Made by a program: the position numbers and the translations under genes | Notes under the pieces: model-generated | Told to the model about the DNA's origin: nothing | The model's input: the letters and a program-made list of their open reading frames with translations, nothing else | The model's database searches: none | Shown here: positions 4,810 through 7,809 of the stretch, in pieces | Layout of the letters: the number at the start of each line of letters is the position of its first letter | Numbering within the stretch: the stretch's first letter is position 1 | Source of the DNA: Nitrospinae bacterium RIFCSPLOWO2_12_FULL_45_22 | GTDB lineage: Bacteria > 2-12-FULL-45-22 | Direction of reading: 5' to 3' | NCBI GenBank assembly: GCA_001803565.1 | Contig: MHDQ01000232.1 | Location: forward strand, 1 to 7,809 | DNA length: 7,809 nucleotides

Positions 4810-6174
4810 ATGGCCCAGACTATCTACCATCAGGACAAAGACCTCCTATTCAAGATCAAGGTACTGCTTGCCTTCCGCGTGATCATTATTACTGTCTTTA
4901 TGGGGGGGGCATTCCTTGCCTCGCCGCGTATAGAGTTACACAACCCATCATTCCAGGGTATCATATCCCTCATTATCCTGACCTACCTCAGCACTATTGC
5001 CTATTCCCTGGCCTTAAAAAAGATCAGGAATCTTTACCTTTTTTCCTATCTGCAGATCCTGGGCGATTTATTGATCGAGACGGGTATAATATATTTTACT
5101 GGTGGTATTGAGAGTCCTTTTTCCTTTCTTTATACCCTTTCTATCATTGCAGCCAGCATAATAATCTATCGGCCAGGGGGGTATTTTATTGCCTCTATGG
5201 CGACTATACTTTATGGTCTCATAGCTAATCTCGAATTTTACCAGATTATTACGCCACTAGCCATCTCGCAGAGGGTAACAGGGATAATTTCGGCCGAGTA
5301 TTTCCTCTTCAAGATATTTTTAAATATCTCTGCCTTCTTCCTGATCGCCTTTCTGAGCGGGTATCTAGCACAAAGCCTTAAGCGGACCGGGCGGGAGCTG
5401 GTAGAGAAGAAAATTGATCTGATAGAGATGGAAGAGCAGGTCAGGCGTGCCGATAGATTGGCTGCTATAGGTAGGATTGCTGCCGGGATGGCGCATGAGA
5501 TCAGGAATCCCCTGGCCTCTATTAGCGGTTCTATCCAATTGCTAAAAGAAGAGATGTCCCCGGATGGCCCTTACCAGAAATTGATGGATATTGTCCTGAC
5601 CGAGACAGACCGCTTAGACCGGATAATAACAGATTTCCTTACCTATGCCCGGCCCGCACCCCCCCATCTCCAGCCCTGCAACATCAATAACCTCCTTAAA
5701 GAGACCATTGCCTTGATAATGAATAGCCCATACTATTTACCCCAGATAGCTATAGAACTATCTCTGGATAAAAAAGAGACTGAAATATTGATAGACCCTA
5801 ACCAGATAAGACAGGTCTTCTGGAACCTCTCTATTAATGCCTTACAGGCCATGCCGTCCGGGGGCAGTTTGAGGCTATCTACCAGGTGGCTAGAAAAACC
5901 CTGGAAAGATACTGATAAAAAATGGCACAAAAACCTTAATCTTCCCCTGGCCGAGATTATCATTGCTGACACTGGCATAGGCATCCCTAGCCAGGATAAG
6001 CCCCGGATATTTGAGCCATTTTTTACTACCAAAGATAATGGCAGTGGCTTAGGGCTGGCTATTGTCTATCGTATAATAGAGGAACATAGGGGTTATATAG
6101 AGGTGGATAGTAAAGAAGGGGAAGGGACCAGTTTCCATATATGGCTCCCCACCTATCCAGATAATAGTAAATAA
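4810..6174 (+). CDS. pilS: PilS, membrane sensor histidine kinase
   Basis: A 454-aa sensor kinase. About six hydrophobic helices (near 15-37, 49-70, 75-97, 103-121, 124-147, 165-188) form the N-terminal sensor, with the TGGIESPF turn at 97-104 typical of PilS-like membrane sensors. A short linker leads straight to the HisKA H-box with His229 in HEIRNPL (229-235). The HATPase domain has the N-box around Asn343 (NLSINALQAM), G1 DTGIGIP at 387-393, F-box FEPFFTTK at 401-408 and G2 GSGLGLAI at 411-418. All catalytic boxes are intact. In Pseudomonas, PilS monitors inner-membrane pilin and phosphorylates PilR. A PAS domain between membrane and kinase parts, known in some PilS proteins, is not evident here. 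It starts 4 nt after pilC without a clear ribosome site, suggesting coupling. An 8-G run lies at codons 31-33. Confidence 0.93.
   Translation: MAQTIYHQDKDLLFKIKVLLAFRVIIITVFMGGAFLASPRIELHNPSFQGIISLIILTYLSTIAYSLALKKIRNLYLFSYLQILGDLLIETGIIYFTGGIESPFSFLYTLSIIAASIIIYRPGGYFIASMATILYGLIANLEFYQIITPLAISQRVTGIISAEYFLFKIFLNISAFFLIAFLSGYLAQSLKRTGRELVEKKIDLIEMEEQVRRADRLAAIGRIAAGMAHEIRNPLASISGSIQLLKEEMSPDGPYQKLMDIVLTETDRLDRIITDFLTYARPAPPHLQPCNINNLLKETIALIMNSPYYLPQIAIELSLDKKETEILIDPNQIRQVFWNLSINALQAMPSGGSLRLSTRWLEKPWKDTDKKWHKNLNLPLAEIIIADTGIGIPSQDKPRIFEPFFTTKDNGSGLGLAIVYRIIEEHRGYIEVDSKEGEGTSFHIWLPTYPDNSK
4902..4909 (+). repeat. Homopolymeric G8 tract inside pilS
   Basis: Eight consecutive G residues fall within codons 31-33 of pilS, in the first membrane helix. 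Such tracts are prone to slippage, either biologically or in sequencing. The reading frame is intact with 8 G. Confidence 0.9.
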
Positions 6175-6176
6175 GC

Positions 6177-6180
6177 GGAG
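6177..6180 (+). promoter_or_regulatory. Ribosome binding site of the GxxExxY gene
   Basis: GGAG lies 7 nt before the ATG at 6188 and 2 nt after the pilS stop codon. It lies outside the 26-nt repeat that starts at 6198, so initiation signals appear to come from sequence outside the repeat-bounded block. Confidence 0.55.
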
Positions 6181-6187
6181 AGTAATA

Positions 6188-6604
6188 ATGCAAATTAAAC
6201 CACAGAGGCACGGAGACACAGAGAAACCAATTTATTATGATGAAGGATTGACTAGCAAAATTATAGCATGTGCGATAGAGGTTCATAGACATCTCGGGCC
6301 AGGATTGTTAGAGTCTACTTATGAAGAGTGTTTCTGTCATGAACTCAATATAAATGGAATATCTTTTGAAAGACAAAAGCCTTTGCCATTAGAGTATAAA
6401 GGGATAAAACTGGACTGTGGATATCGGATGGACATGGTGGTGGATAATAAAGTCGTCATAGAGCTTAAATGCGTTGATAAAATTACATCTGTGCATGAGG
6501 CTCAACTGTTAACTTATTTAAAGCTATCGAATATTAGAGTTGGTCTAATTATCAATTTTTACACGAGTGTATTGAAGGATGGGATTAGGAGACTCGTATT
6601 ATAA
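6188..6604 (+). CDS. GxxExxY-family protein (PD-(D/E)XK nuclease-like)
   Basis: A 138-aa protein of the GxxExxY family. The name-giving motif GLLESTY is at 39-45, inside the typical HRHLGPGLLESTYEE context. Further family features are ERQKPLPLEYKG (61-72), Asp82 in RMDMVV, and Glu92-x-Lys94 in VIELK, a spacing like a PD-(D/E)XK nuclease core. AQLLTYLKL and GLIINF follow near 105-124. No defined function is established to my knowledge; nuclease activity is inference from the fold pattern. Residues 4-12 are encoded by the left 26-nt repeat, so the extreme N-terminus is probably not part of the family domain; no other in-frame ATG exists before residue 81. Hand counts of two 60-nt stretches give 32 and 37 % G+C, against 57-58 % in two stretches of pilT and pilS. 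It has nothing obvious to do with pili and looks like a foreign cassette. Confidence 0.9.
   Translation: MQIKPQRHGDTEKPIYYDEGLTSKIIACAIEVHRHLGPGLLESTYEECFCHELNINGISFERQKPLPLEYKGIKLDCGYRMDMVVDNKVVIELKCVDKITSVHEAQLLTYLKLSNIRVGLIINFYTSVLKDGIRRLVL
6198..6223 (+). repeat. Left 26-nt inverted repeat of the GxxExxY cassette
   Basis: It is built of degenerate 8-nt units (CACAGAGG, CACGGAGA, then CACAGAG) preceded by AAC. It pairs with 6606-6631 in inverted orientation, with 23 of 26 positions identical. It lies inside the coding frame and is translated as residues 4-12 of the GxxExxY protein. Confidence 0.88.
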
Positions 6605-6605
6605 A

Positions 6606-6631
6606 CTCAGTGTCTCAGTGTCTCTGTGGTT
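6606..6631 (-). repeat. Right 26-nt inverted repeat of the GxxExxY cassette
   Basis: Read on the minus strand, it begins AACCACAGAGACACTGAG, with 8-nt units CACAGAGA and CACTGAGA followed by CACTGAG. It starts 2 nt after the GxxExxY stop codon. The three differences from the left copy are single-base substitutions, with no gaps. Confidence 0.88.
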
Positions 6632-6701: not shown

Positions 6702-7809
6702 ATGGGTACGAGCTCAGCAAAGATATTGGTAATAGATGATGAGCGGAGTATGAGGAAGTTCCTGTCCATTCTCTTAACCAGGGAAGGGTATTTAGTGCGG
6801 GTAGCTGAGGGCGGCGAAAAGGCCCTGACTCTGTTAAGAAAAGAGAATTTTGACCTGGCTATTACCGATATAATTATGCCCGGGCTGGATGGACTTCAAC
6901 TCTTGAAAGAAATGACACAGCTAGACCCATCCCTCCCGGTAATCATGATTACTGCCTATGCTACTACCACCACGGCCTTAGAGGCCATGAAAATCGGGGC
7001 GTCAGATTATGTTACTAAACCCTTCAAGATAGAAGAAATCAAGGCTATTATAGCCCGGGCATTGGAGAAGAAAACCCTGGTAGAAGCCCCCTCTTCATTC
7101 GAGGCCACTTATCCTGCTTCTTCCTTCCCGGACTTTGAGATAGTGGGCCGCAGTGAGAATATATTAGAAGTATGCAAGCTTCTGGGTAAGGTAGCAGAGA
7201 AAGACGTCTCGGTATTGATAAGGGGAGAGAGTGGGACGGGGAAAGAGCTCATTGCCCGCCAGCTCCACTACAATTCCCTCCGGCGAAAGAACCCTTTTGT
7301 CCCGGTCAATTGTGCCGCCATTCCCAGGGAGCTATTAGAGAGCGAATTATTCGGCCATGAAAAAGGGGCCTTTACCGGGGCCCTAACTACTAAGATAGGT
7401 AAGTTTCAACTGGCCCATGGTGGGACTATATTTTTGGATGAGATAGGAGACCTAGACCTAACCCTCCAGGGAAAAATCCTGAGGGTGTTGCAGGAGAAGG
7501 AGATCGAGAGGGTTGGCGGCAACCAGACCATAAAAGTGGATGTCCGGGTTATTGCTGCTACAAATCAAGACCTGGAACAGGGTATCAAAGAAAAAAGGTT
7601 TCGCGAAGACCTCTTTTATCGGCTCAACGTGGTGCCTATATTTTTGCCACCCTTGCGGGAGAGGAAAGAAGACATACCCCTGCTGGTACAACACTTCTTA
7701 AAAAAATACCACGATAGCGCCAGAAAGGTTATTGGCATATCACCCGCAGCCCTCCAACTCTTGCAAGATTACAACTGGCCGGGTAATATCAGGGAATTAG
7801 AAAATGTCT
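6702..7809 (+). CDS. pilR: PilR, sigma-54-dependent response regulator, 3' partial
   Basis: The frame opens at ATG 6702 and stays open to the window end (369 codons). Receiver domain (about 6-122): acidic pocket Asp12-Asp13, phosphoacceptor Asp56 in ITDIIMPG, Thr84 and Lys106 in VTKPF. After a linker, the AAA+ sigma-54 interaction domain starts near 145 (FEIVGRS): Walker A GESGTGKE at 175-182, the sigma-54-contacting loop GAFTGA at 222-227, Walker B IFLDEIGD at 243-250, the [12 protein letters not shown] segment at 299-310, LPPLRER at 315-321, and WPGNIREL at 359-366. The C-terminal helix-turn-helix lies beyond the window. In pil loci PilR activates the sigma-54 promoter of pilA on phosphorylation by PilS. 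Naming rests on this NtrC-type architecture plus the adjacent pilS; other NtrC-family regulators look similar. No Shine-Dalgarno site is visible and the leader (6632-6701) is AT-rich. Confidence 0.93.

Follow-up and report, generated by a model that had tools for sequence, protein, structure and literature searches.

Among the described systems, REPINs and their RAYT transposases (PMC3116915) share several traits with the element analysed here, a small cassette that encloses a single gene of the GxxExxY family. In both, short inverted doublets that can form hairpins are found in many extragenic copies per genome, and one protein gene is flanked by matching repeats whose type tracks the protein. 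Nevertheless, RAYTs are Y1 HUH transposases, whereas GxxExxY proteins are of the PD-(D/E)XK type, with matches to PDDEXK_3 and TIGR04256 only; REPs are single short palindromic units, whereas the GxxExxY arms consist of tandem 7-nt cores 8-10 nt apart; and RAYTs are described as single-copy genes, whereas GxxExxY genes are present in several divergent copies per genome. Thus, the GxxExxY cassette works like a REPIN/RAYT system but is not one, as the protein family differs.

A second parallel is provided by the intervening sequences (IVS) of 23S rRNA, such as that of Coxiella, whose termini form a stem of 28 bp and which has tandem heptamers beside its gene for the four-helix-bundle protein S23 (PMC4990558). 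Both types of element measure ~0.4 kb and contain a single small ORF, a terminal inverted repeat and tandem short repeats, but the proteins are unrelated (TIGR04256 in our case, and not TIGR02436), the S23 units are of ~7 nt compared to units of 8-10 nt with a CRCNRAG core, and the GxxExxY cassette is not in rRNA. Beggiatoaceae likewise contain short tandem repeats (TAACTGA, PMC4679880) that are abundant between genes and have been suspected of mobility, although these are direct heptamers and do not form inverted arrays on either side of a nuclease gene. Finally, some array elements share GTAA ends and 8-bp duplications with IS66-type MITEs, but (A)ACC forms the ends of the copy studied here and of many hairpins, which have no GTAA ends.

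Regarding the protein, fold and catalytic motifs are common to the Cas4, RecB and lambda-exonuclease nucleases, but it is a stand-alone core of 118 aa without iron-sulphur cluster region or helicase partner, and its gene sits in a repeat-bounded cassette. In the literature searched, two papers alone mentioned GxxExxY proteins, both in passing, and no relevant paper on the array sequence was found; bioRxiv and subscription text were outside this search, so that priority elsewhere is possible.

The cassette between pilS and pilR

The window, i.e., the whole stretch of 7,809 nt that was analysed, contains the following features:

4810..6174, + strand: gene of a PilS-like sensor kinase (PF25323, HisKA, HATPase), ending 23 nt upstream of the left arm
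6177..6182, + strand: GGAGAG, candidate ribosome-binding site for ATG 6188 as judged from the sequence, outside the left arm
6188..6604, + strand: GxxExxY gene, ORF of 138 aa (TIGR04256, PF13366), with its stop immediately 5' of the right arm
6198..6223, + strand: left arm, inverted array with units CACAGAGG, CACGGAGA and CACAGAG (6201-6223), outer end AACC
6248..6601, + strand: PD-(D/E)XK nuclease domain of 118 aa that keeps the motifs G..E..Y, D, ExK and QxxxY (68-sequence alignment, AlphaFold2 model, fold matches)
6606..6631, - strand: right arm, inverted array with minus-strand units CACAGAG, CACTGAG and CACTGAG, outer end AACC
6702..7809, + strand: gene of a PilR-like sigma54 response regulator, starting 70 nt past the right arm and running off the contig

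The two arms were complementary at 23 of 26 positions and could be extended to 31 nt at 84%. Their units are of the type CACNGAGN, with the ACC end outermost in both arms, and three CACNGAG units with an 8-nt period were found in each of them (starting at 6201, 6209 and 6217 on the plus strand, and at 6628, 6620 and 6612 on the minus strand). The enclosed gene scored 155.9 bits against TIGR04256 (curated cut-off 35) and 151.1 bits against PF13366 PDDEXK_3 (cut-off 22), and profile matches identified a PilS-type kinase upstream and a receiver/sigma54-activator protein downstream. A first-pass annotation made from the sequence alone had described a GxxExxY gene between 26-nt inverted repeats of 8-nt units, 23/26 identical, that splits pilS from pilR, and it was right in coordinates, repeat, gene and neighbours. 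It had also stated that the repeats closely hug a single AT-rich gene; there is indeed one gene, and the GC content of its region is 35-39% compared to 42-54% in the rest of the window, but the left array lies within the ORF. As ATG 6188 is upstream of the left arm, the array is read in frame as the N-terminus of the protein (MQIKPQRHGDTEKP), with the arm coding for QRHGDTE, and therefore array and gene overlap.

In an alignment of 68 GxxExxY proteins, residues G17, G19, E22, Y25, D62, E72 and Q86 (domain numbering) were invariant and K74 and Y90 were conserved in at least 90%, a motif set of the RecB/Cas4-type PD-(D/E)XK nucleases. The AlphaFold2 model of the nuclease domain (pLDDT 96.7) had Cas4 SSO0001 as its closest solved fold (Z 10.2), and Foldseek matched it to Cas4 and lambda exonuclease, in both cases with weak E-values; a sequence search of the PDB returned no relative. 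The protein is likely a catalytically active nuclease.

Inverted arrays at GxxExxY genes in other genomes

The survey comprised 107 GxxExxY loci, 80 of them from named species-level contigs and 105 with both flanks. Each gene was scored by the best inverted match between its upstream and downstream flanks, with a threshold of at least 13, and swapped flanks and other ORFs were used as controls. The threshold was reached by 75/105 GxxExxY genes compared to 6.2% of the swapped flanks (median scores 17.5 vs. 8.0) and to 8/414 other ORFs of the same loci; among the seven of these ORFs listed, identified by eye from the start of each translation, there were three further GxxExxY genes, one Y1-type transposase and one four-helix-bundle gene. 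A recognisable array pair was absent at about 29% of the GxxExxY genes. The hosts included members of Planctomycetes, Verrucomicrobia, Proteobacteria, Chloroflexota, Bacteroidota, Acidobacteria, Spirochaetes, Omnitrophota and Dojkabacteria, together with two archaea, Methanothrix and a Methanosarcinales. The first-pass annotation had mentioned such repeats near GxxExxY genes of other environmental genomes, which these figures bear out strongly across many phyla, and we hold the existence of this type of cassette and the general association of gene and arrays to be practically certain.

Several loci showed peculiarities of their own. In L161, a segment of ~63 bp just 3' of the gene, from about position 756 and including the right arm, was tandemly duplicated. 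In two Bacteroides species (L212 and L224), the gene order was radA - GxxExxY - FAD-dependent protein, with identical right arms and different left arms. On the minus strand of L167, a Y1/RAYT-like transposase gene with its own flanking inverted repeat was found beside the GxxExxY cassette.

The core unit of the arrays was CRCNRAG, less often CRCNGAT or others, with unit spacings of 9, 8 and 10 nt in 105, 89 and 24 cases, respectively, and an outer end that was almost always (A/C)ACC. In the 40 loci whose arms each had three or more units, both arms shared one spacing pattern in 33 cases (for example, 8-9-10 in L195 and 8-8-10 in L196), compared to a mean of 8.4 and a maximum of 16 in 2000 shufflings, whereas the N positions of the units differed freely between arms. 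Therefore, the letters and the geometry of the units are constrained, as fits recognition of each unit. A scan for CGC-type arrays produced mostly unpaired matches, probably due to chance in GC-rich DNA.

In the window's own genome, the pattern CACNGAGNCACNGAG was matched 41 times compared to 12 for the reversed pattern, and three-unit arrays were found 168 times compared to none for the reversed control. The GxxExxY sequences of this genome comprise five long genes together with seven short fragments of the C-terminus, nearly all of them enclosed by inverted arrays and located, where related, at different loci with different flanks. The unit varied from copy to copy: CACNGAG in the window, CACNAAG in L012, L014 and L015, ACAGGAT in L010, CACRAGATT in L013, L016, L017 and L019, and ACGCAGAT in L018. 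Among the 100 arrays listed, neighbours less than 500 bp apart were convergent in 22 cases, divergent in none and tandem in two. The convergent pairs were mostly gene-less hairpins, with spans mainly of 59-266 bp, some of which keep only the 3' end of the gene, and the presence of such C-terminal fragments inside small elements indicates that these are internal deletion derivatives.

Mobility and empty sites

The first-pass annotation had proposed to look for an empty pilS-pilR site in relatives, and in distant relatives both genes were in fact adjacent, with gaps of 20-92 nt compared to the 528 nt of the window. In Prosthecobacter (L195), a cassette splits MetH, with the residues up to about 320 on one side and those from 323 on the other, so that only ~1-2 residues are unaccounted for, and in L166 a cassette separates two subunits of xanthine-dehydrogenase type that are adjacent in L162. 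For these gene cassettes the comparison is at the protein level or by gap length, whereas it is at the nucleotide level for a 91-bp hairpin of the viral contig L312, which was missing in two relatives (L327 and L256) and showed a possible 5-bp target duplication, TTCAT; another insertion had no clear duplication. In addition, sister GxxExxY proteins were found in different phyla (e.g., Chlorobi/Verrucomicrobia, Planctomycetes/Methanothrix and Methanosarcinales/Electryoneota). Flanks are thus general and empty sites exist, the reverse of the situation that the first-pass annotation had named as speaking against its idea of a minimal "mobile or homing-like system". Of this idea, mobility is supported by the multicopy hairpins, the empty sites and the relatives across phyla, and the cassette family is very probably mobile, whereas homing and autonomous mobility stand as proposals.

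Other collections were less informative. For G017, the genus comprised no second genome with which a gene cassette could be compared at the nucleotide level. None of the eight GxxExxY records of the plasmid collection had an empty site, the Phocaeicola radA locus, considered as an empty-site candidate, had a different gene in place, and the phage collection contained no GxxExxY gene. Viral contigs contained one such gene and many array hairpins; several hairpins each were present in many IMG/VR contigs (e.g., L312, L282, L308 and L661), whose comparison offers candidate filled and empty sites. L271/L345 and L298/L306 were rejected as filled/empty pairs, as they were without an array hairpin. 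Co-directional neighbours were weakly enriched, with 41/68 array-flanked loci compared to 33/66 control triples in this ORF-based count, a difference too small to carry weight here.

What may act on the arrays

The above results point to the cassette as a miniature inverted-repeat element with a partner gene, and we consider it probable that it is one copy of a miniature mobile element whose family is widespread and, it seems, undescribed. Full copies consist of two inverted arrays, usually of three CRCNRAG-type units 8-10 nt apart with ACC outward, enclosing one GxxExxY gene, and gene-less copies of the same two arrays with a short loop, in some cases with the last codons of the gene. The GxxExxY nuclease, a minimal Cas4/RecB-like enzyme, would recognise the units in each of the two arrays, probably in the form of DNA, although a hairpin, extruded or single-stranded, is conceivable, and would nick or cut at the array ends. 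In this way it could mobilise its own cassette, and hairpins in trans, as RAYT transposases are thought to do for REPINs. Copies would survive mostly at places where the damage is smallest, between the genes of operons, with their gene expressed from the transcript of the host. An action of the nuclease on the arrays that drives their mobility is the reading we prefer, with some reserve; we infer it from the conserved nuclease motifs, the co-occurrence of genes and arrays and the association of array type with protein clade.

As for the latter association, array type changed 30 times along the protein tree compared to 38.8 with shuffled labels (0/200 shufflings as low), and the CRCNGAT type changed 3 times compared to 6.8 (0/500 as low). 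Different array types accompany different GxxExxY proteins within a single genome (G000), so that the association cannot be put down to host identity in that case. The sister proteins (100/93) of L187 and L220, located at the same methylmalonyl-CoA mutase (mutA-mutB) junction, also speak for the preferred reading: their units differ throughout both arms, all being of the GAG type at one locus and of the AAG type at the other. Regarding co-occurrence, three-unit arrays were found in 11/12 genomes with GxxExxY compared to 4/19 without (Fisher p=1.7e-4), in a set of 31 genomes in which phylogeny was controlled by the choice of different families only. These associations are correlations, and genomes may accumulate every kind of mobile DNA at once.

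Alternatively, the arrays and hairpins could be moved by another enzyme (an IS66-type DDE, RAYT/Y1 or other transposase) with GxxExxY as cargo. Arrays were indeed present in genomes where a GxxExxY gene was not detected, such as G009, with 31 arrays and 19 four-helix-bundle matches, and G001, a 68% complete assembly with 9 arrays. Furthermore, some array elements of genome G000 (L016 in C64, L017 in C67 and L236 in C81) resemble IS66-type MITEs, with GTAAGTATTCAGT or GTAACCGTTCA at the outside together with direct repeats of 8 bp (CTGTTGAT, AGGATGCC and AATTAATT), and those of L016 and L017 hold a GxxExxY C-terminal fragment. These GTAA-type ends with 8-bp duplications, which we take to be like those of IS66 elements, imply that another transposase moved at least these copies, and in our reading a DDE transposase captured or mobilised these array elements. 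However, neither GTAA terminal repeats nor an 8-bp target duplication were found around the window copy, and both transposase types were weaker predictors of arrays than GxxExxY: that of IS66 was detected in 4/32 genomes and was absent from most array-bearing ones, whereas Y1 transposases were detected in 26/32, with or without arrays. A role as cargo would also leave unexplained that array type tracks protein clade and that one protein family recurs between arrays in many phyla. We regard this possibility as unlikely.

Less likely still is a homing process, in which gene-less hairpins would be empty targets that the nuclease cuts and into which recombination copies the cassette. The genome does contain many empty hairpins of matching type, and in G017 (L117:1240-2100, C32) the 3' end of tyrS was found on both sides of a GxxExxY cassette, the upstream copy being foreign-looking in codon usage, as co-conversion would leave it. 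Nevertheless, several small elements hold C-terminal fragments only, which makes them deletion products instead of virgin targets, no two relatives were found with a hairpin in one and a cassette in the other at the same site, and most pilS-pilR relatives have no room for a hairpin, as judged from gap lengths only.

The arms could also act in RNA, by forming a stem in the transcript that is cut out or protected in the manner of 23S rRNA intervening sequences, with the protein as an incidental feature. The transcript can fold a long terminal stem (z -4.0), and the Coxiella IVS has a terminal stem and tandem heptamers. However, arm mismatches showed no bias to wobble (83 of G:U type vs. 70 of A:C type, p=0.33) and so lend no support to an RNA stem as the feature under selection, and the variable positions of the units were not kept complementary, whereas letters and spacing were. 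Rfam gave no match for the window, nor for 20 related loci, which places these cassettes outside rRNA, and we give this explanation little credit. Lastly, it is hardly credible that the repeats are a static part of the host, with a REP-like role as regulators or terminators, and that the gene lies between them by chance, for although intergenic hairpins could, from their position, affect operon expression, the gene-repeat package is common to unrelated phyla, sites are found empty and copies lie at different loci with different flanks.

Returning to the nuclease as the agent that acts on its own arrays, there is a substantial chance that the cassette belongs to a new class of element. We propose tentatively that in this class, present in bacteria and archaea, a stand-alone Cas4/RecB-like nuclease, in place of a transposase of the DDE, HUH, tyrosine or serine type, would spread its own gene and gene-less hairpins through recognition of paired tandem-unit arrays, with the four-helix-bundle (S23/IVS) elements as a parallel lineage of the same architecture. 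The analysis gives a testable role to GxxExxY proteins, which are common in environmental genomes, and the DNA target of the nuclease would be readable straight from its own flanks. It also accounts for very common interspersed hairpins, with 168 three-unit arrays in one genome, and its architecture ties these cassettes to the long-unexplained S23 intervening sequences.

As for this parallel lineage, four-helix-bundle genes (TIGR02436, S23-like; L021-L029 and L369-L398) were also flanked by inverted arrays, of ~7-nt units, with 25/35 reaching a score of at least 13 compared to 1.4% of swapped flanks. Thus, the architecture alone does not need a nuclease. In genome G009 (e.g., L383 and L393), many of the 19 four-helix-bundle matches formed divergent pairs separated by a few hundred bases.
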